A DNA stretch of 41,405 bases from Halothermothrix sp. DTU029 (GCA_001512435.1 LFRS01000113.1:1-41405), one strand, 5' to 3'. Counted from the first letter of the stretch, positions 3,790 to 41,288 are shown. Notes: a model not told the origin generated them from the letters alone. Numbers and translations: made by a program.

Positions 3790-3865
3790 AATGTTATAAA
3801 AAAACAGGACTTTTATATAAAAGGAAGAAATATATATAAAACAAATTAGATAGTAGGTGAGTAGG

Positions 3866-4690
3866 ATGAAAAAAACTAAATTTTTCTTGACAATGCTTTT
3901 ATTGCTTTTATGTACTAATCTGCTGGCAGGAGCAACTACTATTGCTATTGTGGATTTTACCAATAATACCGGCTATCATATTCTCGGGAATATTGAAGAA
4001 GTGGCTGCTGATTATTTGACTACATATATTAATGCCAGAGATGATTTCCAGGTTGTGGAGAGAACCAAATTAAAGAGTATCATTACTGAACATGGTTTTA
4101 CTACCTCCGGACTGGTCGATCAGACCGATTCTGCTGTAGAGCTGGGTAAATTACTGGGGGCAGAGTATATTCTTACCGGTTCATTGATAAATCTGGACAT
4201 AGAGGAGAAGAGTTTTAGCGGCTATGGAATTACCAGTAAAAGTGTCACCTTGACCCTTGAGTGTAATATAAAATTGATTTCCATAAATACTGGAGCAATA
4301 ATGATCAGTGATATTTATAGTAGTTCCAATACTTATCAAAATCATAGTGCCTCTTCCATAAGAATCGATCTCCGGGGCAAGGCCAGAGAACTGATGAGGA
4401 ATATTGCCCATGATTTTGCTAAAGATCTGGAGTCCATAAATAAAGTAGAAAAGGAAAAGGACCAGGTCTTTGTAGAATTTATTTCTACTCCAGCCGGGGC
4501 AAGTATAGAGATCGATGGGGTTTATTATGGAAATACACCGACCAGACTGGCTGTAAGTAAAGGCTTACATAGAGTAGTAATTAGTCTGGGTGGTTATGAG
4601 ACCTGGGATAAAATGGTGAATTTCTCTGAAGGATTTGTAGTTGATGCGAATTTAGGTTTAAAGGAGGAGAAGGTAAAAAATGAAAACTAA
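3866..4690 (+). CDS. Exported CsgG-like protein with C-terminal PEGA domain
   Basis: The product is 274 residues from ATG 3866, placed by AGGTGA (3855-3860). The N-terminus is a signal peptide (MKKTKFFLTMLLLLLCTNLLAG then ATTIAIVDF). Its single Cys lies inside the hydrophobic core and does not make a lipobox, unlike E. coli CsgG. The body fits CsgG/HfaB: a first strand TIAIVDFTNNTG, a VVERTKLKSIITEHGF segment, and a SAVELGKLLGAEYILTGSL segment. Near residue 210 a PEGA domain follows (VEFISTPAGASIEIDGVYYG, then a GLHRVVISLGGYE-type end), often found in surface and periplasmic proteins. CsgG proteins act at the outer membrane in curli secretion or envelope assembly, so its presence suits a diderm cell. 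It overlaps the next gene, a paralogue, by 11 bases, so the two are surely co-translated. Confidence 0.8.
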   Translation: MKKTKFFLTMLLLLLCTNLLAGATTIAIVDFTNNTGYHILGNIEEVAADYLTTYINARDDFQVVERTKLKSIITEHGFTTSGLVDQTDSAVELGKLLGAEYILTGSLINLDIEEKSFSGYGITSKSVTLTLECNIKLISINTGAIMISDIYSSSNTYQNHSASSIRIDLRGKARELMRNIAHDFAKDLESINKVEKEKDQVFVEFISTPAGASIEIDGVYYGNTPTRLAVSKGLHRVVISLGGYETWDKMVNFSEGFVVDANLGLKEEKVKNEN

Positions 4691-5576
4691 TAATTCCAGG
4701 ATTTATTTACTGTTAGTTTTGATTTTTATAGTATTTTTCTCAAACCTGGTTCTGGCTGATGATCCCCTGATAGCAGTCCTTCCTTTTGATGAAGGGGATT
4801 TAGTCTGGAAAGGCATGTGGGGAAATCAAATTATAAATGGTATAACCCAGCAGGTTACTGATAAAATAGTCCAGAAGGAAAATATCAGAGTGATTGAAAG
4901 AAACAGGATTGCAGAAGTAATGCAGGAACAGGATTTTGGCCAGACTGGTAGAGTTGACCCGGCTACTGCGGCAGAGATTGGCAGAATACTTGGTGTGGAT
5001 TATTTGATTTTAGGTACATTAACCCATATGGATGTGAAGGATCAGGGTGGAATAAGGATTGGGCCTTTAAGTATTTCTGGCTTGAAAGCAACTATTGTAT
5101 TAAGTGGTAGGATTGTAGACAGTACTACTGGAGAGATAGTTGATTCCATAAGGGCAGAGGCTGAAGTCAGTGATGCTTCCATCAGTTTATCCCAGCTACA
5201 GGATATATCCTTTGGCACAAAGGCTTTTGCTGATTCAGCCCTGGGCAAATGTATTGACCAGGCTACTACGAATTTTGTAGATAATATAAAGCCGGAGAGA
5301 CTGAAACCTGTTGAGAAGGAACGCAAAGAGGGTCTTGTCCTGAAAATAGTTGGGGATAAACTGATAATCAACATTGGTGCCAATAAGAGTTTGCAGAAAA
5401 ATCAGATCGGTGAATTAATCCGCCTGATCCAGATTGAAGGCTTGAGTGAACCAGTCAGGATGCCCATAGGAAGAGTGAAAGTCTTCAGTGTTGATAAAGA
5501 GGCAGCCATACTGGATATTGTGGAACTTTATGACCGTAATGAAACTCCCCAGGAAAGGGATTGGGTTTTATTTTAG
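4680..5576 (+). CDS. Second exported CsgG-like protein with FlgT-like C-terminal domain
   Basis: The product is 298 residues. ATG 4680 lies inside the end of the upstream gene and follows AAGGAGGAGAAGG. The signal peptide is about 26 residues, ending VLADD, with no lipobox. The CsgG-like part has LIAVLPFDEG, IRVIERNRIAEVMQEQDFGQ and a TAAEIGRILGVDYLILGTLT segment, parallel to its neighbour and best explained by tandem duplication and divergence. The C-terminal 80 residues lack PEGA. They read as a small beta domain (LVLKIVGDKLIINIGANKSL, then IGRVKVFSVDKEAAILDI) that resembles the C-terminal domain of the flagellar outer-membrane-associated protein FlgT. The two genes probably make partner subunits of one envelope assembly. 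The FlgT likeness is my reading by pattern and less sure than the CsgG call. Confidence 0.75.
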   Translation: MKTNNSRIYLLLVLIFIVFFSNLVLADDPLIAVLPFDEGDLVWKGMWGNQIINGITQQVTDKIVQKENIRVIERNRIAEVMQEQDFGQTGRVDPATAAEIGRILGVDYLILGTLTHMDVKDQGGIRIGPLSISGLKATIVLSGRIVDSTTGEIVDSIRAEAEVSDASISLSQLQDISFGTKAFADSALGKCIDQATTNFVDNIKPERLKPVEKERKEGLVLKIVGDKLIINIGANKSLQKNQIGELIRLIQIEGLSEPVRMPIGRVKVFSVDKEAAILDIVELYDRNETPQERDWVLF

Positions 5577-6898: not shown

Positions 6899-7170
6899 TA
6901 GAAAAGCGAGGACGGGGAGAGTAGGATATGCTTTTTTACTCCAGAGAGGGATGTCATAGGCTGAAAGCATCCTGTAAAAAATATATTTGAAGACCACCCC
7001 CGAGCTGATAGGAGGAAAGTCCCCCAGGGGGCAAGTAATTCTATCCGGAATAAACCGTTAATTACCAGGAGTGGGCAAGTTAAGTTTTCCTGCCAGGAAA
7101 TTTTAATTTGCTTATTAGAGTGGAACCGCGGAACCTTATTCGCCTCTAGGATGGTGAATAAGGTTTTTTT
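6899..7170 (+). promoter_or_regulatory. T-box leader, Thr specifier ACC, upstream of thrS
   Basis: The T-box sequence AGAGTGGAACCGCGG (7117-7131) is canonical. Stem I begins with a GAGGACGGGGAGAGTAGG-like start and contains a distal GGGATG...GCATCC arm. The specifier is ACC at 6993-6995, in GAAG-ACC-A before CGAGC, matching tRNA-Thr(GGU). The terminator helix AACCTTATTCGCC (7132-7144) pairs with GGTGAATAAGGTT (7153-7165) and is followed by T7. Uncharged tRNA-Thr should stabilise the antiterminator and let thrS be transcribed. Between the terminator and thrS (7171-7329) is AT-rich sequence holding only a modest hairpin, GATCCTT (7218-7224) with AAGGATC (7238-7244). Confidence 0.95.
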
Positions 7171-11687: not shown

Positions 11688-11810
11688 ATGGGTTTGACTG
11701 CAGCATTTTTCTGGAGGATCTTTGAAGAGACAGGTTCAATTAGTGCTTATTTGGCCTATAAACAATTATTTTGCATAATGACAATGAAGAAGAAAAAAGA
11801 ATATATATAA
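11688..11810 (+). CDS. YqzL-like small protein, 40 residues
   Basis: A short frame not found by length-limited gene calling: ATG 11688 to TAA 11808-11810. The product starts MGLTAAFFWRIFEETGSISA and continues YLAYKQL, which closely follows the YqzL pattern of an aromatic opening (W-x-x-F), T-G-x-I-x-A-Y-L and Y-K-x-L. A basic tail follows (MKKKKEYI). A GGAAGGATGTGA tract lies a little upstream as ribosome-binding site. A consensus promoter precedes it by some 65 bases, and its end touches the start of the pheS T-box. The function of YqzL is unknown. It is a predicted soluble peptide or a weakly amphipathic helix; no membrane segment is evident. Confidence 0.7.
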   Translation: MGLTAAFFWRIFEETGSISAYLAYKQLFCIMTMKKKKEYI

Positions 11811-11811
11811 A

Positions 11812-12050
11812 GGCAAGGAAGGAGAGAGTAGTCAGCAGTAAGGCTTCACCAGGGAAAGGTTGTCACCGACTGGAAGCAACCTGAAGGCTTTGTTGATGAA
11901 GTTCGCTCTGGAGCTGTGAACTGAAATTAGAGTAAGTTTGACCGGTGGAGAAGACCGTTATGATTGAAGAGTGACCTATTCTGAGGAAGATAGGTAATAA
12001 GGGTGGTACCGCGTGGATCTCTCGTCCCTTTGGGATGGAGAGATTTTTTA
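11812..12050 (+). promoter_or_regulatory. T-box leader, Phe specifier TTC, upstream of pheST
   Basis: The T-box motif AAGGGTGGTACCGCG is at 11999-12013. The specifier is TTC (11902-11904) in GAAG-TTC-G before TGGAGC, the same GAAG-codon setting as in the thrS leader. Stem I starts with a GGAGAGAGTAGTC-like segment and the distal arm follows GGTTGTC...GCAACC. The terminator helix ATCTCTCGTCCC pairs with GGGATGGAGAGAT and is followed by T6. Uncharged tRNA-Phe(GAA) should turn on pheST. A weak internal promoter (ATGACA at 11778, TATATA at 11802, 18-base spacer) overlaps the end of the upstream small gene and could start this leader on its own. Confidence 0.95.
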
Positions 12051-25850: not shown

Positions 25851-28472
25851 ATGGTAATGACAGGAGATGAGTTACGCAAAGCATATCTGGATTTTTTTGC
25901 TGAGAAAGGACATTTGATCCTTCTCAGTGCATCTTTAATACCACAAAATGACCCCAGTATATTGTGGATTAATGCAGGGATGGCTCCTTTTAAGGCATAT
26001 TTTAATGGGGTTGAAGAACCACCCAGGAGGAGGATTGCCACCAGCCAGAAATGTATCAGGACAAATGATATAGAGAATGTAGGCCGTACAGATCGGCATC
26101 ATACCTTTTTTGAAATGCTGGGTAATTTTTCTTTTGGCGATTATTTTAAAAAGGAAGCAATATGCTGGAGCTGGGAGTTTGTCACAGAGGTTTTAAAGCT
26201 GGATAAAGACCGGCTCTGGATTACTGTTTACCAAGATGATGATGAGGCTTTCAATATCTGGCGGGATGAGGTAGGTTTGCCGGAAGAAAGAATCATTAGG
26301 ATGGGTAAGAAGGATAATTTCTGGGAGATTGGTACCGGCCCCTGTGGCCCCTGTTCTGAGATTCACTATGACCGGGGAGAAGAGTATGGCACCGGCCCTG
26401 AAGATGTTATTGGTGGTGAAGGGGATCGTTTCCTGGAGATCTGGAATCTGGTCTTTACCCAGTTCAATAAGACAGAAGAGGGTGACTATATACCCTTACC
26501 CCAGAAAAATATTGATACTGGTATGGGCCTGGAGAGGGTAGCCTCTATCTTACAGGGGGTTGACTCCAATTTTGAAACAGATTTACTGAAACCAATGATC
26601 GATTACCTGGTAGAAGATAGTGGAATAAAATATTTGCAGGATGAAGATACTAAGGTAGCTTACCGGGTTATTGCCGACCATGTCCGTGGTATTACCATGG
26701 CTATTTTTGATGGGGCTTTGCCCAGTAATGAGGGCAGGGGATATGTTATCAGGCGTATTTTGCGCCGGGCCCTCCGTTATGGCAGGAAACTGGGTTATGA
26801 GGAGCCGTTCCTATATCAGATGGTACCGGTAGTTATCAAAACAATGCAGGGAGGGTACCCTGAGCTTAAAGAGAAAGAGGAATATATCCAGAGAGTTATC
26901 AAGGCAGAGGAAGAACGTTTCCTCCTTACCCTTGACCAGGGTTTGCATATCCTGGATGGGATGATTGCTGGCCTTAAAAATAGTGGAGAGAAACTTTTGT
27001 CTGGTATTGATGCCTTTAAACTCTATGATACTTATGGCTTCCCCCTGGATTTGACCAGGGATGTCCTGGCTGAAGAAGGCCTGGCTGTTGATGAAGATGG
27101 TTTTAATCAGGAGATGGAAAAACAGAGGGAAAGGGCCCGTCAGGCCAGAGAAGAAACCGGATTCAGCGCTACAGAGGAAGAAAGGCTTTACAGAAGTCTC
27201 CTGGAAAAGTTTGAACTGGAATTTACCGGTTATGAACATATAGATGAGAAAAGCAATATAATTGCTATTGTAAAAGATGGTGAAGAAGTTGAGCTGGCAG
27301 GAGCCGGTGACAAGGTAAAAGTGGTCCTGGAAAAGACTCCTTTTTATGGAGAGAGTGGTGGACAGGTTGGAGATAAAGGGATTCTCCGTTTTGCTGATAA
27401 CCTGGCTACTGTTTATGATAGCCGAAATGAGGCTGGTCTTATTGTCCATTATGTTGAGATAGAAAGGGGCAGCTTCAAAAAAGGGGATGCTGTTGAGGCA
27501 AAGGTTTATGCAGATCTGCGGCAGGCTACAGCCCGTAATCATTCTGCAACCCACTTATTGCATAAGGCCTTAAAGGAGGTTCTGGGAGACCATGTCAGCC
27601 AGGCTGGTTCACTGGTAGAGCCTGACCGCCTCCGTTTTGACTTTAATCATTTTAATGCTTTAAGTAAGGCTGAACTTATGGAGATAGAAAAGAAGGTTAA
27701 TAAAGCCATCCTGGCCAATCTGGAAGTTGATGTTACCTTGACAGATATTGAACAGGCCAAGGCTATGGGGGCAGTTGCCCTTTTTGGCGAGAAGTATGAT
27801 GATGTGGTCCGGGTGGTCTCCATGGGTGATTATTCAAGAGAACTCTGTGGCGGTACCCATGTAGAAGCTACTGGAGCCATTGGTTCTTTCAAGATTTTAA
27901 GTGAATCCAGTATTGCTGCCGGGGTTCGCCGGATTGAAGCCATTACCGGTGAAGAGGTATTACGTTATCTTGCCGGCCAGGAAGATAAGATAGAGAAAGC
28001 CGCTAGCTTACTGAAAACTACAGCTGATAACCTGCTGGACAGGATCGAGGCCTTACATGCCCGGGAAAAGGAGCTGGAGAAGGAAATCAGGCTCCTGAAA
28101 GAACGGCTGGCTGGTTCAGCCATTGATGAGCTGCTGGAAAAAGTGGAAGAAGTTAATGGGATAAAACTATTGCGGACAGAGGTAGCAGGCCTGGATAATG
28201 AGGCCTTATTGAACATGACAGATCAATTGAAAGAGAAAATGAAATCTGGAATTATTGTTCTGGCTTCCAGTAATAATGATAAGGCAATCTTTGTGGCAGC
28301 AGTTTCAAAGGACCTGGTAGCAGAGGGTTACCATGCCGGGAAGATAATTGGCCAGGTAGCCAGGATTGCCGGTGGTGGTGGTGGCGGCAGGCCGGATATG
28401 GCACAGGCGGGAGCCCGTGATCTTACAAAGATTCAGGAAGCTCTGGACCAGGTAGTGGAGATTATAAAATAA
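25851..28472 (+). CDS. alaS: Alanyl-tRNA synthetase
   Basis: 873 residues, full length; ATG 25851 after AGGAGG. Class II catalytic core (about 1-250) with LRKAYLDFFAEKGH, SQKCIRTNDIENVGRTDRHH and NIDTGMGLERVASILQG; the helical tRNA-recognition domain (250-460); the editing domain with HSATHLLHKAL and the zinc site CGGTHV that clears Ser/Gly-tRNA-Ala; and the C-terminal C-Ala part with a coiled coil (730-760) and the closing GGGGGGRPDMAQAG stretch. Unlike thrS and pheST in this window, the leader carries no T-box. Followed 110 bases later by ireB as in many Firmicutes. Confidence 0.98.
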   Translation: MVMTGDELRKAYLDFFAEKGHLILLSASLIPQNDPSILWINAGMAPFKAYFNGVEEPPRRRIATSQKCIRTNDIENVGRTDRHHTFFEMLGNFSFGDYFKKEAICWSWEFVTEVLKLDKDRLWITVYQDDDEAFNIWRDEVGLPEERIIRMGKKDNFWEIGTGPCGPCSEIHYDRGEEYGTGPEDVIGGEGDRFLEIWNLVFTQFNKTEEGDYIPLPQKNIDTGMGLERVASILQGVDSNFETDLLKPMIDYLVEDSGIKYLQDEDTKVAYRVIADHVRGITMAIFDGALPSNEGRGYVIRRILRRALRYGRKLGYEEPFLYQMVPVVIKTMQGGYPELKEKEEYIQRVIKAEEERFLLTLDQGLHILDGMIAGLKNSGEKLLSGIDAFKLYDTYGFPLDLTRDVLAEEGLAVDEDGFNQEMEKQRERARQAREETGFSATEEERLYRSLLEKFELEFTGYEHIDEKSNIIAIVKDGEEVELAGAGDKVKVVLEKTPFYGESGGQVGDKGILRFADNLATVYDSRNEAGLIVHYVEIERGSFKKGDAVEAKVYADLRQATARNHSATHLLHKALKEVLGDHVSQAGSLVEPDRLRFDFNHFNALSKAELMEIEKKVNKAILANLEVDVTLTDIEQAKAMGAVALFGEKYDDVVRVVSMGDYSRELCGGTHVEATGAIGSFKILSESSIAAGVRRIEAITGEEVLRYLAGQEDKIEKAASLLKTTADNLLDRIEALHAREKELEKEIRLLKERLAGSAIDELLEKVEEVNGIKLLRTEVAGLDNEALLNMTDQLKEKMKSGIIVLASSNNDKAIFVAAVSKDLVAEGYHAGKIIGQVARIAGGGGGGRPDMAQAGARDLTKIQEALDQVVEIIK

Positions 28473-28582
28473 TTCCTCCCGGAAAGAGGATTTTCCCTGC
28501 CAAGCAAGAATATATATAGGGAATACTTGGTATTTTTAGGATAAGAGGGAAAAGAAAAAAAGCTGGAAAAGGAAGTGAGCTT

Positions 28583-28846
28583 ATGCCTGCAGATAATATT
28601 AATAATCAGACCATGCAGTTTAAAATTAATAAGGAAGAGTTAAGTCGAACAGGCAGTATCTTAAAAAAGGTCTATCAGGCTTTGGAAGAAAAAGGGTATA
28701 ATCCTATAAACCAGATTGTAGGTTATTTATTATCCGGGGATCCAGCCTATATAACCAGCTTTAAAGATGCCCGTACTATGATGAGAAGTATTGATCGGGA
28801 TGAGATTATTGAAGAATTACTCCGTGCTTATATAAAAAATATCTAA
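28583..28846 (+). CDS. ireB: IreB-family regulatory protein (UPF0297, YrzL)
   Basis: 87 residues, ATG 28583 after GGAAGTGAG. It matches the UPF0297 family end to end: an MQFKINKE opening, a [20 protein letters not shown] block, [20 protein letters not shown] and the closing [13 protein letters not shown]. In Enterococcus faecalis, IreB is a phosphorylated target of the Ser/Thr kinase IreK and tunes intrinsic cephalosporin resistance, a cell-envelope trait. Here the gene sits between alaS and the three-gene insertion described below. It would normally be followed at once by ruvX (yrrK). Confidence 0.93.
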
Positions 28847-28997: not shown

Positions 28998-31178
28998 TTG
29001 CGGAAATATTTATTTCTTTTCCCGGTATTGCTTCTTTTGCTTAGTCTAGCTGTTCAGGCAGCTAAGCCTGAGCTAGAGGGAGTTTTTAATTCTAAAAAAC
29101 TGAATATGGTCTGGGTGATTATAGATCAGGTTAGCTTGAGTGAGTTAAGGGAAGGGTATACCCCTAATCTGGACTATTTACAGGAAAGAGGTGCTTTTAG
29201 CTTGATTAATGTCCGCCCTGCTGCAGGAGCGGTGGAAGCTGAAAGCACTTATTTAAGCATTAATGCTGGAAAAAGATGCCAGGGGAGTAAAAAATCACTA
29301 AAGGGAGAAGTGTGGGGAAAAGGGGCCCGGAATGACGAAATAGAGGCCTTAATTGCCTTAAATCAGCTTACTGAGTACAGGGGGCAGCCAGGCCGGCTGG
29401 GGGACCTGGCCAGGGAAAATAATATACAGCTGGGAGTCCTGGGTAATAGTGACCTCCAGGATAAGAAAATAAGAACAATTGTAACTATGGCCATGGACAG
29501 TTATGGCCTGGTACCCCTGGCCAGGATTGATGAAAGCATATTGGAGGAAACCAGAGAACCCTGGGGCTATCAGAGTGATTTTCAGGCCTATCTGGAGGCC
29601 TTTGATGATCTAAAGGAAGAGGCCAATGCCATCTTTATAGAGACTGGAGATATCAGTAGGATAGAATACTATTTTAGTTCCGGTATAGATATAGTAGATG
29701 TCGCTAGTGAAGATTATTTTTTACTCGAAAAAAAACGGCGGGAATATAAACTGGCTGCTCTGGAGAAGATAGATGCCTTTATAGGTTCATTATTGGCTAA
29801 GCTGGATCTGGAAGAAACCCAGCTGGCTATCCTTTCTCCCACCCCTCCCCGGGAAGAAAGGGCCTATAGGCTGGGCTGGATCTTACTTGTGGGGAGGGAG
29901 GTGGACCAGGGTTGGCTGACTTCTACTTCGACAAGGAGAAATGGGATTATCACCATAGCTGACCTCCTCTCTATTTTTACTGCTGCCAATGGTATTGAGG
30001 AGGGGGCAGGTTCCCGGGTATATTATCAGGCAGGAGCAAGGCAGCTTAATTGGCCTGCCCTGGACAATCTTTACCAGAGCTTTGTCTTGATTTATAGAAT
30101 GCGTTCTTACTATATTAAAACTTTTATTTTTTTTCAGATTGTAGCCATCCTCCTTTCCCTTCTTTCCCTGGGTCTGAAAAAAAGTAGACTGGCTGGTATA
30201 ATTGCAACTTATTTTACATATCTATTAATAGCAATTCTATTTCAACCGGTAAATTGTTTATTAATATCATTTTTGGAGCTTGATTCAGAAAATAATCTCT
30301 TTTTCTTTCTCCTGCTTTTATTGTTTCTGGAGCTGGTATTGCTTCAGAGGCTTAGAGATAAAAAAATTCTACAACTTTATATTATCACTACTGTCCTGGT
30401 GGTTATAGTCACCGGGGACCTTATTAATAATTACCGGCTCCTGGCTGATTCTCTTTTGGGCTATTCTTCCATACTGGGGGCCAGGTATTATGGCCTGGGC
30501 AATGAGTATATGGGTTTTTATCTGGGGGCCTTTCTGCTTAATCTTGGCCTTCTGCTGGAGTTCTGGAAAGGGAAGGGGAGGGGACAAGCAATATATAGCC
30601 TGCCTTTCTTTCTTTTTATAATCTATACAATTGGCAGTGTAAACCTGGGAGCAAATTTTGGCGGCCTGCTTACGGCAGTACTGGCAGGGGCAGTAAACTT
30701 TTATCAGATAATAAGAATTGAGGATAGATTTACCCTGAAAAAAGGGCCTTTGATATTGACAGGATTAATCCTGGTCCTGGCTTTTCTTCTTGTAGATTAC
30801 TGGGGAGTTTTGGGAAAGAGGAGCCATATAGGGCTGGCAGTAGAAAAAGTCCTTTCTGGAGACTGGCAATGGATCAAGGATATGGTTTTCCGGAAACTGC
30901 GGATGAATATCAAGCTCTTAAGATGGACAATCTGGACCAGGGTATTGCTGGCCATGATCGCCTATCTTATTTTCCTCCTGAAAAAGCCGGTTCCCATTCT
31001 AAAGGAGTTCTTTGCCCGTTATCCCTATATAAAAGCAGCTTTTCAGGCTGCCCTGGTCAGCAGCCTCCTTACCATGTTGGTTAATGATTCAGGGGTAGTG
31101 GCTGCAGCCACCCTCTTATTCTATCCAGTAATGAGTCTATTATATTGTCTAACTACAGAAAAACAGCAGGCTGATTAA
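28998..31178 (+). CDS. Degenerate alkaline-phosphatase-fold ectodomain fused to a polytopic membrane domain
   Basis: 726 residues from TTG 28998 with GAGGAAG ten bases upstream. A signal peptide or first membrane helix (about 1-22) leads into an outside domain of some 350 residues. It looks like the alkaline phosphatase/sulfatase fold: MVWVIIDQVSLSEL (metal-binding Asp), TPNLDYLQERGAFSLIN, a SESTYLSINAG-like nucleophile loop (EAESTYLSINAG), and later IFIETGDISRI. The usual closing SDHG metal motif is replaced by LAILSPTPPREE, so catalysis is doubtful. From about 370 on there are roughly 10-12 membrane helices with a striking GARYYGLGNEYMGFYLG motif and a GANFGGLLTAVLAG motif. I know this architecture only as uncharacterised. 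It lies 45 bases before the FtsA-like gene, in the same transcript. Confidence 0.7.
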   Translation: MRKYLFLFPVLLLLLSLAVQAAKPELEGVFNSKKLNMVWVIIDQVSLSELREGYTPNLDYLQERGAFSLINVRPAAGAVEAESTYLSINAGKRCQGSKKSLKGEVWGKGARNDEIEALIALNQLTEYRGQPGRLGDLARENNIQLGVLGNSDLQDKKIRTIVTMAMDSYGLVPLARIDESILEETREPWGYQSDFQAYLEAFDDLKEEANAIFIETGDISRIEYYFSSGIDIVDVASEDYFLLEKKRREYKLAALEKIDAFIGSLLAKLDLEETQLAILSPTPPREERAYRLGWILLVGREVDQGWLTSTSTRRNGIITIADLLSIFTAANGIEEGAGSRVYYQAGARQLNWPALDNLYQSFVLIYRMRSYYIKTFIFFQIVAILLSLLSLGLKKSRLAGIIATYFTYLLIAILFQPVNCLLISFLELDSENNLFFFLLLLLFLELVLLQRLRDKKILQLYIITTVLVVIVTGDLINNYRLLADSLLGYSSILGARYYGLGNEYMGFYLGAFLLNLGLLLEFWKGKGRGQAIYSLPFFLFIIYTIGSVNLGANFGGLLTAVLAGAVNFYQIIRIEDRFTLKKGPLILTGLILVLAFLLVDYWGVLGKRSHIGLAVEKVLSGDWQWIKDMVFRKLRMNIKLLRWTIWTRVLLAMIAYLIFLLKKPVPILKEFFARYPYIKAAFQAALVSSLLTMLVNDSGVVAAATLLFYPVMSLLYCLTTEKQQAD

Positions 31179-31223
31179 TAAAAAAGTAAAAAAATGCTAA
31201 TAATAAAAATGGAGGGGAGAAGG

Positions 31224-32468
31224 ATGAAATTTCTTGATAAAATCTTCTTAAATAAAGAGGAAGATTGCTTTCGTTACAGGCTGGTCCTGGATATTGGCAC
31301 AGAGTATTTGAAGGCAGCCCTGGTTGAATACAATAGGGAGGAAAGAAACATTATTGCCTTCAGCAGGGTAAAACAGGATTACGGAAACATGGTCGGGGGG
31401 GCCATTACCAATATTGCTGGAGTTCTGGAAAAGGCCAGGGAAGCATTATTAAAGATTAAAGAATTTTCTCCTCACCAGACAAAAGAAATGGTCTGTGGTA
31501 TTGCCGGGGAATTTGTAAAAGGAGTCCTCCTGTCCCTGGATATAAGCAGGGAAAAGGCAGACCGCAGGATTGATGAGCGGGAAGTCTTATATTTGATCAG
31601 GGAGGGAGAGAAAAGGGCTTATGAAAAGGCCTTAAAGATGGCCGAGATGGAGACGGGTATCAAGGATGTGCAAATGGAGTTGATCCAGACTAATATAGTG
31701 GAGATTAAGGTTGATGGCTATAAGGTAATAGACCCCTATCAGTTCCAGGGGAAAAACCTTAATCTTATTGTTTTCTATAGCTTTGTGCCTCTAGTCCAAT
31801 TGGGGGCACTACATACTGTAGCCAGTAAACTGGGTTATGAGCTGGTAGCAGTGGTTCCAGAACCAATGGCAGTAGCAGAGGGTATTTTAAATGCCGAATC
31901 CCGTGAATTTGGAGCAGTTATTATAGATATCGGGGGTGGTACTACAGATATAGCCCTGATCAGGAATGGGGGTATTGAAGGGACACGAATGTTTGCCATG
32001 GGTGGCCGGGCTTTTACCAGGACTATAGCTGGAGAGCTGAATCTGTCCCTAAAGGAGGCAGAAGAATTAAAATTGGCCTATTCCCGGGGGGAAAAGGTTA
32101 AGGATTTTGATAAAATCGATAAATTGATCAAGGCAGACTTACATATTATCTATCAGGGGATAGAGCTATCTTTAATGGAGCTGGCCCAGGGAGAGGTTTT
32201 GCCAAAAAGGATATACTTCTGTGGGGGAGGCAGTGCCTTGAGAGGGTTGATCAGTGGCTTCCGGGAACTTAATCCTGCTAAAAGACTGCCTTTTGGACAA
32301 AATCCCCTGCTCAAGTTATTAAGTGGTAAGGATATTAAAGGAATTCAGGATCAATACTCTCTTTTGACCGGGGTAGAATATACAACCCCCAGGGCTCTGG
32401 CTTATTGTGCCAGCAAATCCCTTTGGGCAGAGAGGAGAATGATGAATCTTGAAAGTCAGAGGTTATAG
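31224..32468 (+). CDS. FtsA/PilM-like actin-family ATPase
   Basis: 414 residues; ATG 31224 after GGAGGGGAGAAGG (ATG 31194 has no such site). Actin-fold motifs are all visible: phosphate 1 LVLDIGTEYLKAALVE (residues about 19-34), phosphate 2 AVIIDIGGGTTDIALI (about 230), adenosine motif IYFCGGGSALRGL (about 335). Between the first two lies an FtsA-type 1C/SHS2-like domain with MVCGIAGEFVKG, DVQMELIQTNIVEIKVDGY and VIDPYQFQGKNL. There is no obvious C-terminal amphipathic membrane helix of FtsA type (it ends RRMMNLESQRL), so I read it as a relative of FtsA or PilM rather than the division FtsA. Its gene overlaps the following membrane-protein gene by 20 bases; PilM-type ATPases often bind the cytoplasmic tail of such a partner. 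Confidence 0.85.
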   Translation: MKFLDKIFLNKEEDCFRYRLVLDIGTEYLKAALVEYNREERNIIAFSRVKQDYGNMVGGAITNIAGVLEKAREALLKIKEFSPHQTKEMVCGIAGEFVKGVLLSLDISREKADRRIDEREVLYLIREGEKRAYEKALKMAEMETGIKDVQMELIQTNIVEIKVDGYKVIDPYQFQGKNLNLIVFYSFVPLVQLGALHTVASKLGYELVAVVPEPMAVAEGILNAESREFGAVIIDIGGGTTDIALIRNGGIEGTRMFAMGGRAFTRTIAGELNLSLKEAEELKLAYSRGEKVKDFDKIDKLIKADLHIIYQGIELSLMELAQGEVLPKRIYFCGGGSALRGLISGFRELNPAKRLPFGQNPLLKLLSGKDIKGIQDQYSLLTGVEYTTPRALAYCASKSLWAERRMMNLESQRL

Positions 32469-33987
32469 GATTTTTTACATTGAAGAAGATGCCAGTATCA
32501 AGGATATTATAGACTTAATTGAATCTACAACCGCTGTAAAAATGGCCCTGGTAATCAAAAATAGTCAACTGCTTTTAAATAGTTCGGTAAATTTAAAGCT
32601 CTTAAAAAAGTACAGCAGGAGGTATAAAAAGGAGCTTGTTTTTATTAATCCAGAGCCTGTCAATGTGGACCAGATCAATAGGGAGGGTTTTCAGATCTAT
32701 GAAAACCTTATAACCCTTGAAAGGGATCTTCCCCTGTATACTGAAAGGCCCAGAGAAGTTTATACTGGTGAAGAGCTTTATGGGGGTGGGAGTCCTTCGC
32801 TAGCAAAAAGTACTGGCAAAAGGTGGCTTCTTTCTTCCCTCTATCTTTTCATATTATTGCTGGTTCTGGGCCTGGTCTATTTATATTTCTTCTACCCGAC
32901 AGCCACAGTAGAGGTAAAACCGGTTATCCATACTGCCAGTCAGGAAATCAGTATTATTGCTTCAAGAGACCAGAACCGGATTGACTGGCAAAACCATATC
33001 CTGCCTTTACATCAAACCCAGCTTGAGATCAGTGGTGAAAAAGAGTTCAGGACTACTGGTGTAAAAGAAGTTGGTGATGAAACAGCCCGGGGCTATGTTA
33101 GATTTATTAATGAAAGCCAGGAGGAGGTAGAAATAGGAGCTGGCACCATTCTTCTGGCTGATAATGGTTTAAAATATCGGACCATTGAAGATATTGTTAT
33201 TCCACCAACAAGGGTTGATTATCTCATGAATGTACCGGTGGGGATGCGGGCAGGCCAGGCTGATGTAAAAGTGGAGTGTTTGACAGCAGGTAGCAAGGGG
33301 AATATAGGAATTGGCCGGATCAGCAGCCTGGAGAAAGACCTGCCTGATATTCATGTTATAAACCCAGAGCCTATCAGTGGAGGGACAGATCAAAGGATTG
33401 GCCAGGTCAGTGAAGATGATCTTGTTAAGGGGGAAGGGCTCCTGGCTGAAGAACTGAAGAGTAAACTCTTTAGCAAAATTTATCAGGAACTCAGTGGAAA
33501 TTATCGGATTATTGAAGAGAGTATTTCCTTTACAGATGAAAGATACGAGTTTAGCCACCGGGCCGGAGAGGAGACAGATCTATTAACAATTAAGGGCAGT
33601 GTCCAGGCAACTGCTTATTTAATGAAAAATAATGAGTTGGACCGCTTACTCACCCGGATTTTTCAGGAAAATATGCCGGAGAATTTACAGCTCTTGAGCT
33701 CCGGGATAAATATCGATACAATTCAGCTTGAAGAAAGAGAAGATAAGTTGTATAATATAAAAATAAGGGTAAATGCCCCAGTTATGACTTTGATTGATAC
33801 AAATCAGCTGGCCAGGAATTTGTTGGGGCTTGATCTGATGGAAGCTGAAGATGTCCTGGAAGGGATCAGTGATATTGAGGATTTTAGAATTGAAAGTCAA
33901 TCCAGCAGGCTGCCAGCCATGGGTTTTGCCATAAAGGTAGTAGTCAATCAACCGGAAGAAAAAATGGTTTTTAATCTCAGGGATTAG
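32449..33987 (+). CDS. Single-pass membrane protein with baseplate-J-like exterior domain
   Basis: 512 residues from TTG 32449, inside the end of the FtsA-like gene; AGAGGAG lies upstream. Residues 1-95 are cytoplasmic with an LLLNSSVNLKLLKKYSRRYK pattern and a VFINPEP...REGFQIYENL end, a block I associate with membrane proteins annotated baseplate J/gp47 in various phyla. After a Gly/Ser linker come a membrane helix (about 126-149) and a beta-rich exterior part. Residues 212-255 carry the baseplate-J-like signature (GYVRFINESQEEVEIGAGTI and a LKYRTIEDIVIPP segment, then VPVGMRAGQADVKVECLTAG). No phage genes lie nearby, so the name reflects fold, not phage origin. The C-terminal 180 residues look like a further alpha/beta domain. 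ruvX follows after 14 bases. Confidence 0.72.
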   Translation: MKVRGYRIFYIEEDASIKDIIDLIESTTAVKMALVIKNSQLLLNSSVNLKLLKKYSRRYKKELVFINPEPVNVDQINREGFQIYENLITLERDLPLYTERPREVYTGEELYGGGSPSLAKSTGKRWLLSSLYLFILLLVLGLVYLYFFYPTATVEVKPVIHTASQEISIIASRDQNRIDWQNHILPLHQTQLEISGEKEFRTTGVKEVGDETARGYVRFINESQEEVEIGAGTILLADNGLKYRTIEDIVIPPTRVDYLMNVPVGMRAGQADVKVECLTAGSKGNIGIGRISSLEKDLPDIHVINPEPISGGTDQRIGQVSEDDLVKGEGLLAEELKSKLFSKIYQELSGNYRIIEESISFTDERYEFSHRAGEETDLLTIKGSVQATAYLMKNNELDRLLTRIFQENMPENLQLLSSGINIDTIQLEEREDKLYNIKIRVNAPVMTLIDTNQLARNLLGLDLMEAEDVLEGISDIEDFRIESQSSRLPAMGFAIKVVVNQPEEKMVFNLRD

Positions 33988-34001: not shown

Positions 34002-34439
34002 TTGCGTTCTATGGGTCTGGATTTTGGAGACAAAACCATTGGTATTGCCATTAGTGATCCCCTGGGCTGGACAGCCCAGGCTAAAGGGGTAATCAGGAGA
34101 AAGAACCTGACTGATGATTTTGCCCAGCTGAAGGAATACCTTGATAAATACAATATTCAGGAGATAATTGTGGGACTACCTGTTAATATGGATGGGACGG
34201 CAGGCAGTCGAGTCAAGAAAACAGAAGAATTTGTTAATTTTCTAAGAAAGAGGGTTGAGATACCGGTTAAGGTCTGGGATGAACGTCTCAGTACACGGCA
34301 GGCAGAAAACATACTCCTGGAGGCAGATTTGAGTAGAAGGAAGAGAAAAGAGTTTATAGACCAAGTGGCAGCCAGTATTATTTTGCAGAACTATCTGGAT
34401 GCCAAAAAAAATAAAGGAGATGAAATGTATGGCAAATGA
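34002..34439 (+). CDS. ruvX: Putative pre-16S rRNA nuclease / Holliday junction resolvase-like YqgF
   Basis: 145 residues, TTG 34002 after GGAGGTAGG. RNase H-like fold with the three acidic residues: MGLDFGDKTIGIAISDPLG at the start, IQEIIVGLPVNMDGT in the middle with ERLST after it (VWDERLSTRQAE), and DQVAASIILQNYL at the end. E. coli YqgF processes the 5' end of 16S rRNA; resolvase activity is claimed for some members. The gene overlaps the following DUF1292 gene by 11 bases, as in Bacillus yrrK-yrzB. Confidence 0.95.
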   Translation: MRSMGLDFGDKTIGIAISDPLGWTAQAKGVIRRKNLTDDFAQLKEYLDKYNIQEIIVGLPVNMDGTAGSRVKKTEEFVNFLRKRVEIPVKVWDERLSTRQAENILLEADLSRRKRKEFIDQVAASIILQNYLDAKKNKGDEMYGK

Positions 34440-34704
34440 GGGAACTTTCTGGATTGACGAAGAAGAGGGCCTGTTGATTATCAGGGATATGGATGGGGTA
34501 GAAGACCAATTTGTGATTGAAGATGAGCTCTTCATAGACGATAATAGATATCTCATCCTGATACCGGAAGAAAGCATCGATGATGCAGAAGCAGAGGCTT
34601 TTGTTTTAAAAATAATCAATGATCAGGATGAAGAAGTACTTACTGTTATTGATGATGAAGAAGAGTTTCAGATGGTTAAGGAAAATTACGAGAGTTTACC
34701 ATAG
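34429..34704 (+). CDS. DUF1292 protein (YrzB family)
   Basis: 91 residues from ATG 34429, placed by AAAGGAG and overlapping the end of ruvX; a longer reading from upstream has no site. Highly acidic throughout, with a GTFWIDEEEGLLIIRDMDGVE start and an EEEFQMVKENYES end typical of DUF1292. The fold is a small beta barrel-like domain of unknown role. It is conserved with ruvX and ireB across Firmicutes, which hints at a shared process linked with rRNA or the envelope (inference). A terminator follows. Confidence 0.9.
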   Translation: MANEGTFWIDEEEGLLIIRDMDGVEDQFVIEDELFIDDNRYLILIPEESIDDAEAEAFVLKIINDQDEEVLTVIDDEEEFQMVKENYESLP

Positions 34705-34748: not shown

Positions 34749-34773
34749 ATAAGGGAAAGGCCCTTATATTTTT
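34749..34773 (+). terminator. Rho-independent terminator after the ruvX-DUF1292 pair
   Basis: ATAAGGG (34749-34755), loop AAAGG, CCCTTAT (34761-34767), then ATTTTT. A second, overlapping hairpin, GGTCTTTC (34737-34744) with GAAAGGCC (34755-34762), competes with it. Confidence 0.8.
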
Positions 34774-34852: not shown

Positions 34853-35887
34853 GTGAAGAGGAAGGGAATAATTTTTTTAATTATTGTACTATTAATTGCC
34901 TTTACTATAAAAGTGATAGACCTGATGGGTCCAAATGAAGACCTGCAGGGTGAAAAGCAGATTATAATCAGAACCGGCTCTTCGGCAAAACAGATTGCAG
35001 AAGACTTATATAGGCAGGATCTTATTAAATCAAGAACCTTATTTAATCTTTTAGTAAATATCAAGGGCCTGGAAAACAGCCTGAAAGCCGGGGTTTATAA
35101 TATAAAGCCAGAATACAGGCTGCTGGATATTATTGATTTGCTGGCCAGAGGAAAGGTGGCTACCTTCCGGGTTACTATACCGGAGGGCTTTACCGTAGAG
35201 GAGATTGCCAGAAGGCTGGCAGTAATGACAGGATATAGTGAAGAGGATTTCTTAAGATATGCCAGGGTCAATCCCGGCAAGGACTACCTGGTGGAGGATA
35301 AGGATATTATCTATCCCCTGGAGGGTTTTCTTTATCCTGATACCTATATTATTCCCACTGAATATAAAGCCGGGGAGATCCTGGAGGTAATGCTTTCAGT
35401 TTTTGAATCCCGTTGGCTGGAGAGGATTAAGGCAGCAGTGGATGGAAAGGGAGAGCAGGAAACAGGGCTGGTGGTAAATAAAAAGGTGGTCAATGGCTAT
35501 AGTCTCCATGAGATTATGACCATTGCCTCCCTGATTGAAAAAGAGGCTAAACTTGATGAAGAGAAACCCCTGGTTGCAGGAGTTATATATAACCGTTTGA
35601 GAATGAATATGAATCTCCAGATTGATGCCTGTATACAATATATACTGGGAGAGAGGAAAGAGCGGATTTTATATAGTGATTTGCAGATTGATTCACCTTA
35701 TAATACCTATCTCTATCCTGGTTTGCCGCCGGGACCAATTGCCAGTCCTGGAGCAGAATCCATTAAAGCGGCCTTAAATCCTGCTGATGTAGATTATTTA
35801 TTTTATTTTGCCCTCCAGGATGGGAGCCATGTTTTTACCAGGACCTATAATGAACATCTCAGGTTACAGAATGAAATGAGGAGATAG
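34853..35887 (+). CDS. mltG: Endolytic transglycosylase MltG
   Basis: 344 residues, GTG 34853 after GGGGAGTGGAAAG. One N-terminal membrane anchor (about 4-22), a LysM-like domain (IIIRTGSSAKQIAEDLYRQD) and the YceG catalytic domain with EGFLYPDTYII, then IMTIASLIEKEA, in which E229 corresponds to the essential E218 of E. coli, and LPPGPIASPGAESIKAALNP. MltG cuts nascent glycan strands at the membrane and so sets their length, acting with class A PBPs. It leads the operon that continues with trmR and trhP, the same order as Bacillus yrrL-yrrM-yrrN/O. Confidence 0.96.
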   Translation: MKRKGIIFLIIVLLIAFTIKVIDLMGPNEDLQGEKQIIIRTGSSAKQIAEDLYRQDLIKSRTLFNLLVNIKGLENSLKAGVYNIKPEYRLLDIIDLLARGKVATFRVTIPEGFTVEEIARRLAVMTGYSEEDFLRYARVNPGKDYLVEDKDIIYPLEGFLYPDTYIIPTEYKAGEILEVMLSVFESRWLERIKAAVDGKGEQETGLVVNKKVVNGYSLHEIMTIASLIEKEAKLDEEKPLVAGVIYNRLRMNMNLQIDACIQYILGERKERILYSDLQIDSPYNTYLYPGLPPGPIASPGAESIKAALNPADVDYLFYFALQDGSHVFTRTYNEHLRLQNEMRR

Positions 35888-39139: not shown

Positions 39140-39649
39140 TTAAGGTTTTTTATAAGCTATAATGGCCTTATTGTTTGCAGCTATTTCATGCTGGATATTA
39201 TTGAGGAGGAGGGAAGATTCTTTGCCGTTAATTGTATATACCAGGATATATTTGTACAAATTATTACCTGCTGGACTGGCTTCTTCCAGGGTAAACATTA
39301 TGCTATCTATCCTGTCTTTTGCAATCGTCAAGGTCCTGGAGCTATCTTTTAAGACAAGAGAGCCATTATCCAGATATATATAGTTGAAATTATTATCCAG
39401 GGGATCTGGTAGTTTATCCAGTAATTGTAGATCTACAGCATTGGCCAGTTCATTATAAAAATGGGTCTGGATTATATTTAAATCATTCTGTTCATCTGCT
39501 ATATTCATGGCCTTATTATGTCCCAGAAGGGAGAAAGAAAATAAAGAATAAAAGGCCAGCCCCAGAAATCCCAGGATGGCAATAACGGTCAATAGCTCTA
39601 CTGTCGTAAACCCCTGGTCTTTTTCCAGCTTATTCTTTCCTCTAGGCAT
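39140..39649 (-). CDS. Type IV pilin-like minor prepilin (PilW/ComGF type)
   Basis: 169 residues. N-terminus MPRGKNKLEKDQG|FTTVELL: a short basic leader, prepilin peptidase site after G13, and the conserved Glu5 (E18 of the precursor), then a long hydrophobic helix (ILGFLGLAFYSLFSFSLLG). The C-terminal domain is beta-rich (IYLDNGSLVLKDSSRTLTIA), as in ComGF/PilW-type minor pilins. Its start codon overlaps the end of the previous pilin by 8 bases; last gene of the operon. Likely sits in the tip or priming complex of a type IV pilus or pseudopilus whose assembly genes lie outside this window. Confidence 0.85.
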   Translation of the reverse strand: MPRGKNKLEKDQGFTTVELLTVIAILGFLGLAFYSLFSFSLLGHNKAMNIADEQNDLNIIQTHFYNELANAVDLQLLDKLPDPLDNNFNYIYLDNGSLVLKDSSRTLTIAKDRIDSIMFTLEEASPAGNNLYKYILVYTINGKESSLLLNNIQHEIAANNKAIIAYKKP

Positions 39650-39974
39650 CAGGCATCACAACCTCAAAATATTCAAGCAAGACCCCATTTATTTCTTCCT
39701 GGATCAGCATTCCATCTACTGTAATACTAACCTGGTCACTTTTCCCTTGATTAAAGACAACAGTTATAGTATCTGTATCTGAATTGTCATAGTTGAGGAT
39801 GGCCTCATTAATCCTGAGCTGGGCTGTATTAAGGTCCTGGCTTCTTCTCTGACTAAGTTGTAAGCCATGGGCTCCATTCATAAAAGCAGAAGTCAAGGTA
39901 ATCCCAATAATGGCAAAGATAGCAAGGGAAAGCAAAACTTCCACTAGGGTAAATCCGTCATTTTTATGTAGCAT
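39642..39974 (-). CDS. Type IV pilin-like minor prepilin (PilV/GspI type)
   Basis: 110 residues. The precursor begins MLHKNDG|FTLVEVLLSLAIFAIIG: prepilin peptidase site after G7, Glu5 present (E12), hydrophobic helix to about residue 30. A short C-terminal domain follows with strands TITVVFNQGKSDQVSITVDG. It closely resembles PilV/GspI-type minor pilins in length and N-terminus. A GGGGGTAGGG site precedes the ATG. Middle gene of the three-pilin operon, 15 bases after the large pilin-like gene and overlapping the next. Confidence 0.85.
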   Translation of the reverse strand: MLHKNDGFTLVEVLLSLAIFAIIGITLTSAFMNGAHGLQLSQRRSQDLNTAQLRINEAILNYDNSDTDTITVVFNQGKSDQVSITVDGMLIQEEINGVLLEYFEVVMPDA

Positions 39975-39989
39975 TCTGCCCTACCCCCT

Positions 39990-41288
39990 TTATTTCCAGA
40001 TTCTTCGGTAGCCTTTTCCAGGCTCAAAGCCCATATCTTCAGGGTTTATATCCTTAATACTCTCATCATAGATAATACTGGAGCCCCCTGACATATGTAC
40101 GTCTTTGCCTATTACAGCCCCCCTGGTTTTACCACTTCCTTCATAGTAAATATCTGCATTAGGGGCATATAGAGCCCTGACTATGGCAGAGGCGTCTCCG
40201 CTGATCCTGATCTTGTTTCCACCACTGATAATATTACCGATAATACCTCCACTACCACCAATCTCTATATCTGCTCTTTCTACATAGACATTACCGAAAA
40301 ATTTAGTTGCTCCAGCTGGATTTAAGGTCTGGGTCCCGCTGTAATATAAGAAAACATCATTTGGGTCCCCATGGTTATTTACAGTACCAGATCCAGCAAT
40401 GTTAAATTTATCACTGACATATAAGATTAGCTTCCCAGAGCCCATTTTGTTTATAGTAACCTTTCCACTGCCGGTAACACTGAAGTCATTTGTCCTGATT
40501 ATTAAATCTTCATCATATATATTTATGATCAGTTCACTCTGTACATCAATTTTATCATACCAGCCGCTATTATTAATATAATAGGGAGGGGAAGGATACC
40601 AGCTAGCAGTAAAAGTCCCATAATAGGGGAGGCTGGTAGGGAATTCTGGATAGGGAGGGAGGGAAAACTCTAATTCCTCGGGTAAATTATGTATTTCACT
40701 ATCCAGTTTATACCAGGAAGGTTTGCTTACTGTAGTTTCGGAATCTCCATCAGGCCCTATATATATGTCTCCCTCAAACCTGGGATTACCACCAGCAAAG
40801 TCTATACTTCCAGCAGAAGATTGATTTGTTCCAAAATCTCCTTTGATATAGGGACTACCATCCATTTTTATTATACCAGTAGCAAAAAGGGCATGATCAA
40901 AGAGAGGGAAAGAACCCCTGATTCTGCTTAATTCCAGTTTCAGGCTCCTGCTAAAATTATCGACGGTCCCCACTGAATTAATAATTATCTTATCTCCATC
41001 TCTGGTGACCTCAACTTCAAAAAAGCCGCCACTGTGAGGTGTAGGGGCAGATTTTTTGTTTTCCAATTCAGCTGGCTCGATGATTGAATTTTCTATAGCA
41101 CCGGCCACAACATTGGCACCAGATTTAGCTATATAATAAGCAAGCAGTTCTTTTTCTTTTTAATGGCATTTCGATATTGATTTAAAGAAATATTTAAAAT
41201 GGATACTCCAAGAGTGGTTAATAAGATAATTAAAAGTAAAACCTGAACCAGGGTTATTCCGTCTTCTTTTTTTCAAAAGATTTTTCAT
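39990..41288 (-). CDS. PilX-like large pilin-related protein, reading frame disrupted by two compensating shifts
   Basis: A single open frame exists only from 41108 (GTG) to 39990 (372 residues), but it lacks a start signal and N-terminus. Upstream, AGGTGGTGAG precedes ATG 41288, and the natural protein would be MKNLLKKEDG|ITLVQVLLLIILL..., a prepilin N-terminus, running into LNQYRNAIKK-EKELLAYYIA and on to KSGANVVAGAIENS. Two shifts block this: an extra base in T7/A7 (41267-41273) and a missing base at 41151-41161 (T5-C-T5). They cancel. The exterior part is rich in GSG and in short strands (FSVTGSGKVTINKMGSGKLI), suggestive of a beta-helix like the DUF7305 domain found with PilX-type pilins. 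Sequencing error, gene decay or slippage-based switching are all possible. First gene of the operon. Confidence 0.7.

Follow-up and report, generated by a model that had tools for sequence, protein, structure and literature searches.

A conserved gene pair for an actin-like ATPase and a bitopic baseplate-J-like protein between alaS and ruvX-mltG in Bacillota and Chloroflexota

Does the stretch of chromosome between ireB and ruvX in Halothermothrix sp. DTU029 encode one envelope apparatus, and which of its genes belong together? FtsA, MreB and PilM are well-known bacterial actin-like organisers of envelope machines, which they serve from inside the cell, and the three genes discussed here (A, B and C) include one for a protein of this kind. 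An earlier note on this DNA (GCA_001512435.1 LFRS01000113.1:1-41405; this whole stretch of 41,405 nucleotides is called the window below) had described them as a three-gene envelope module inserted between ireB and ruvX. The genes of the locus are as follows.

alaS, 25851..28472, + strand: upstream limit of the locus, conserved in both phyla (Bacillota and Chloroflexota)
ireB, 28583..28846, + strand: conserved upstream neighbour
gene A, 28998..31178, + strand: TTG start, 726 aa; signal/anchor helix, extracytoplasmic AlkP-superfamily head (about residues 36-350), then a polytopic membrane domain
gene B, 31194..32468, + strand: FtsA/PilM-type actin-like ATPase, 424 aa from the first ATG; likely start 31224
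gene C, 32449..33987, + strand: TTG start, 512 aa; bitopic protein with a baseplate-J-type exterior
ruvX, 34002..34439, + strand: conserved downstream neighbour in Bacillota and Chloroflexota
DUF1292-type gene, 34399..34704, + strand: conserved neighbour, named from its sequence and usual place
mltG-type gene, 34853..35887, + strand: conserved neighbour in both phyla, named from its sequence and synteny

MltG is a murein-strand-terminating transglycosylase. The open frames of A, B and C were all found, at the coordinates and with the spacings that the earlier note had given: on frame inspection, B and C overlap by 20 bases and 14 bases separate C from ruvX, and the second ATG of B, at 31224, yields that note's 45-base gap between A and B. 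This ATG, and not the one at 31194, is probably the start of B, because the ribosome-site sequence GGGAGGAGG stands before it (the codons there, read as part of B, give EGRR) and because several orthologs begin at the corresponding position, with N-termini such as MKFFEKLF and MKFWNGIF. Stem-loops with T-rich tails follow alaS (28474-28490) and the DUF1292-type gene (34749-34767), so that ireB, A, B, C, ruvX and the DUF1292-type gene may form one transcript; scans for terminator-like stem-loops returned more sites than in shuffled sequences, yet they are weak evidence. Elsewhere in the window, two T-box leaders (6900-7150 and 11807-12032) lie upstream of threonyl- and phenylalanyl-tRNA synthetase-like genes, an adjacent pair of CsgG/LpoB-type proteins, of which the first contains a PEGA domain, is encoded at 3857-5576, and pseudopilin-like genes and a DUF7305 protein occupy 39140-41108; beyond the window (L187:8583-12504) come pilB, a PilT-like frame whose N-terminal part is missing, and pilC.

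The arrangement of A, B and C is not due to chance, since 17 further Halanaerobiia genomes show the same order at this locus, and the triple is present in 18 of the 59 genomes of this group. Two others have A and C without an intact B (G003 and G010, the latter with no B at the locus), one has a C alone that lacks the long N-terminal region, or head, of the protein (G017), five have A alone, one further contig ends inside A (G045), and the remaining genomes have none of the three. The B of G003 is reduced to a 64-codon piece with about 52 aligned residues (L029:5457-5612), and that of G039 is split by a frame change (L037:6900-8086).

Outside the Halanaerobiia, the three genes part company. 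Our genome samples were evenly drawn and incomplete, many of them metagenome assemblies, and within them A was found in 207 of 329 Bacillota genomes, C in about 41 (strong matches) and B in 7, every genome with B also bearing C. At the other Bacillota loci examined, C lies at alaS/ireB-ruvX-mltG, after A at some (L113, L117, L118, L120), after B at others (L111, L112, L124), and often alone; B adjoins C in a second Bacillota family (f65), where A is missing, and at L063. The order at L062 is A, C, an aldo/keto-reductase-like gene (L062:7071-8039) and ruvX, and gaps of about 0.95 kb between C and ruvX occur in many Bacillota loci (L106-L125). Among 201 Chloroflexota genomes C is far commoner than B (135 against 52), and C was directly downstream of B at all 20 B loci inspected, and at 19 of these alaS and/or ruvX-mltG stand where expected; the last is a 3.2-kb contig. 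Throughout the inspected loci B is always immediately upstream of C and never apart from it. The order alaS-(ireB)-B-C-ruvX-mltG is common to two phyla, through descent or old transfer, and a module inserted in the Halanaerobiia must be given up for B and C, since the Chloroflexota pair occupies the same locus. What holds of the conserved three-gene unit is thus the B-C pair; A, with its 207 Bacillota genomes against 7 for B, is mostly independent, an outcome that the earlier note had named as refuting a single module, and falls outside it. The best explanation is that B-C is the old unit and A a later or looser neighbour.

The identity of B as an FtsA/PilM-type ATPase outside ordinary FtsA, which the earlier note had put forward along with the domain identities of A and C, was borne out, as were those of the other two proteins. 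B matches Pfam FtsA (2.5e-13) and NCBIfam ftsA (1e-24), the latter with 87.3 bits, below the cut-off of 175.85 bits, and its score against Pfam PilM_2 (25.7 bits) lies just below the cut-off of 27 bits. Its ATP motifs (DIGTE, DIGGGTTD and CGGGS in the window protein; DIGT, DIGGGT.D and CGGGS invariant across B proteins) are accompanied by collinearity with FtsA structures: a profile of 17 B orthologs follows them through the IC-domain region. A tree built from 42 B proteins, FtsA and an FtsA-like family of about 735 aa places B in one clade (support 99/98) apart from both, within which the Chloroflexota proteins make up a subclade (98/99); tight grouping with FtsA was not seen. The same genome encodes its own FtsA, two MreB-type proteins and the long FtsA-like protein. 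The last of these, about 735 aa long and a second protein of the FtsA/PilM-like kind (L144:407-2614, G000:C168), is present in most Halanaerobiia genomes searched. As to membrane attachment, an amphipathic N-terminus of B was considered but not adopted, the amphipathic moment there being in most members not above that of shuffled controls; a short hydrophobic/basic C-terminus occurs in some orthologs and is lacking in others, with no conserved motif.

C is modelled (pLDDT 83) as an alpha/beta cytoplasmic head (residues 1-93), a disordered linker (about 95-124), a membrane helix (125-148) and a beta-rich exterior. The exterior matches Baseplate_J (PF04865; residues 212-314, 1.5e-8, 34.7 bits against a Pfam cut-off of 21.1), and C also matches PHROG_6 (8.9e-17); structure comparison pairs residues 205-316 with baseplate proteins from Mu, diffocin and phi812, among others (Z 13-15). 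The same domain also matches GlxA of Streptomyces, a galactose-oxidase relative (Z 13.4), so the domain by itself does not imply a baseplate. The head resembles the STAS protein RsbS weakly in fold (Z 6.3-6.8 over 92-93 residues, below trust level), and searches with a head-only profile found no relative in PDB or Pfam; a STAS identity was considered for the head and not adopted. Chloroflexota C proteins at four loci (L169, L172, L175, L178) are 839-935 aa long and have a very long linker from the head to the membrane helix, and some Chloroflexota genomes contain up to six C matches.

The ~100 residues of C that share fold and sequence profile with the J and wedge proteins of contractile-phage baseplates are also the whole extent of the likeness. 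C is anchored in the membrane, has a cytoplasmic head, and is encoded on the chromosome among housekeeping genes, with no other baseplate, sheath or tube genes beside it; the earlier note, too, had seen no phage genes nearby. Across the whole genome assembly, C gave the only Baseplate_J match, which argues against a prophage, and viral contigs yielded no B and a single weak match to C (29% across its baseplate domain). A phage or contractile origin was rejected on this basis, and the description of the locus as contractile-like and of the exterior of C as forming rings or a sheath finds no support: GlxA matches the same domain, and there is no second baseplate-J match in the genome. Searches of the open-access literature found nothing joining baseplate J with FtsA, RuvX or Chloroflexi membrane proteins, no title on the B-C pair among works on FtsA-like proteins and Chloroflexi, and for Patescibacteria virus work only.

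Of the two conserved proteins, it is the head of C that would have to meet B. Upstream sequence sufficed for 77 distinct C proteins. Among these, the head is present in all 44 that adjoin B, in keeping with the cytoplasmic head that the earlier note had described, and is missing from 4 of the 33 without an adjacent B, so that every headless C lacks B. The hypergeometric value for this association, about 0.03, was computed by hand and is uncorrected for relatedness, and is only suggestive. Since 29 C proteins without B keep the head, it has another or an additional role, and B is not the whole reason for it.

For gene A, Pfam, NCBIfam and PHROG searches returned no family, and its AlphaFold model (pLDDT 84, pTM 0.82) consists of an AlkP-superfamily head followed by about a dozen helices. 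Residues 28-347 align with the alkaline-phosphatase superfamily at a VIA-align Z of about 21 (rmsd about 3 A over some 245 residues), YejM/PbgA being among the AlkP-fold matches. In an alignment of 25 relatives the first Asp (D43) is kept, PTP or a similar sequence stands where PH0037 has GDHSTP, and the metal-binding DHG motif is absent; judged from this replacement, the usual metal chemistry is unlikely, and the inactive phosphatase-like head that had been proposed for A is upheld. Like LtaS and YejM/PbgA, A joins an extracytoplasmic AlkP-superfamily head to a membrane domain; in contrast to them, A has its head before a long polytopic domain, lacks the DHG motif there, and resembles no named family at the sequence level. 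Best conserved is the membrane half (GARYYGxGNEYMG, LGANFGG, VNDSGVVAAATLL). Where A stands alone, a GT4-type glycosyltransferase adjoins it in 10 of the 12 loci listed, two of the 10 being confirmed by Pfam, and this usual company also speaks against A as part of one unit with B and C. In the Halanaerobiia such a partner seems absent or replaced, and was rejected: the best GT4 scores there are generic (about 206-287 bits), against about 380 in two genomes from outside the class. Genes resembling speD and ubiE are often near A family loci (L126-L142). A belongs to a glycosyltransferase-linked family and probably senses or handles an envelope glycan or lipid.

Taking the observed domains, ATP motifs, IC region, gene order, co-occurrence and phylogeny of the module together, we suggest that B serves as an actin-like scaffold at the membrane and organises C, whose part in envelope assembly would be played outside the membrane; we put the chances of this proposal at about even. 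The closest precedents are FtsA, which binds the cytoplasmic part of FtsN, and PilM, which binds that of PilN, both in the cleft between domains IA and IC; FtsN binding also promotes FtsA filaments (PMC7613929). B has the ATP motifs and the IA-IC-IIA-IIB order of FtsA, and C, like FtsN, crosses the membrane once, its N-terminal part lying in the cytoplasm and a further domain outside, so that binding of the head of C by B may be inferred from the domain order of the one and the topology of the other. By analogy, B would be a cytoplasmic ATPase at the membrane and the folded head its likely ligand, bound in the IA-IC cleft in the manner of FtsN and PilN. Either singly or in short filaments carrying ATP, B might then gather and position C, whose exterior around the baseplate-J-type domain could serve the envelope structurally or as a docking element. 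Gene order suggests that C would probably be active in wall assembly together with the co-located MltG; counted against this is that synteny with mltG and ruvX may mean an old operon and not a shared function. In the Halanaerobiia and some other Bacillota, A would join the B-C module. The differences from the precedents are equally plain. B is a separate clade, far under the ftsA cut-off, in a genome with its own FtsA; the exterior of C is a baseplate-J-type beta domain, and no SPOR domain was seen; and the tails that FtsN and PilN use are short and unstructured, unlike the folded head of C.

The pair might instead belong to a type IV pilus machine as its PilM-PilN-like component, drawing on the pilB, pilC and pseudopilin genes 5-14 kb downstream. 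B is, after all, an actin-like ATPase whose bitopic partner is encoded directly downstream, with the same topological logic as PilM-PilN (PMC7613929); its PilM_2 score falls only just short, and pseudopilin-like genes (39140-39974), the DUF7305 gene behind them and, further on, pilB and pilC are indeed at hand. Yet C has no PilN match, and B-C is not part of a pilus operon, with alaS/ireB and ruvX/mltG as its neighbours in both phyla: it is always at alaS-ruvX-mltG, and pilus genes are never beside it in the 20 Chloroflexota loci. A PilM identity of B was rejected on account of the B-C genome G044: among pilin-like genes, it carries a pilM of its own (PF11104, 3.6e-50) with genes resembling pilN and pilO behind it. 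We consider the pilus explanation very unlikely.

The co-location of all three genes admits two further explanations, which pull in opposite directions. One would make A, B and C a single transenvelope complex of the diderm Halanaerobiia, with A handling LPS or lipid in the manner of PbgA/YejM, C spanning the periplasm, and B as the part that powers or positions the whole. The ordered triple in 18 genomes, the LPS outer membrane of the Halanaerobiales (PMC5007114), the match of the A head to YejM/PbgA, and the adjacency of A and C without B in several other families all agree with it; A is, however, mostly independent of B and C across the Bacillota and stands alone in Acetohalobium-type genomes, and B-C does without A in f65 and at the Chloroflexota locus, so that we regard such a complex as improbable, if not strikingly so. 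The other explanation denies any physical link: A, B and C would merely share an old operon with alaS, ireB, ruvX and mltG, B being a soluble chaperone- or reactivase-like ATPase and C an adhesin-like surface protein. Many genomes do have C without B at the same locus, and the multiple C matches and very long linkers of some Chloroflexota also count in its favour; the constant place of B immediately upstream of C and the presence of the head in every C beside B tell against it, and we think this explanation rather unlikely.

If the scaffold proposal is correct, B-C would be another actin-like envelope system with its own dedicated membrane partner, present in two phyla beside a wall enzyme, and a phage-baseplate-type domain would be serving as a fixed part of the cell envelope. 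In a bolder form of the proposal, which we offer as a long shot, B-C would be an actin-like envelope scaffold of old standing next to FtsA and MreB, common to both phyla, in which ATP-driven B filaments organise a lattice of baseplate-J-like C domains outside the membrane, and this lattice guides the termination of peptidoglycan chains by MltG. The A family, found in 207 of the 329 sampled Bacillota genomes with a window member unmatched in Pfam and NCBIfam, is a large unnamed family of membrane proteins in its own right, and the uncharacterised B-C pair is small enough for direct testing.
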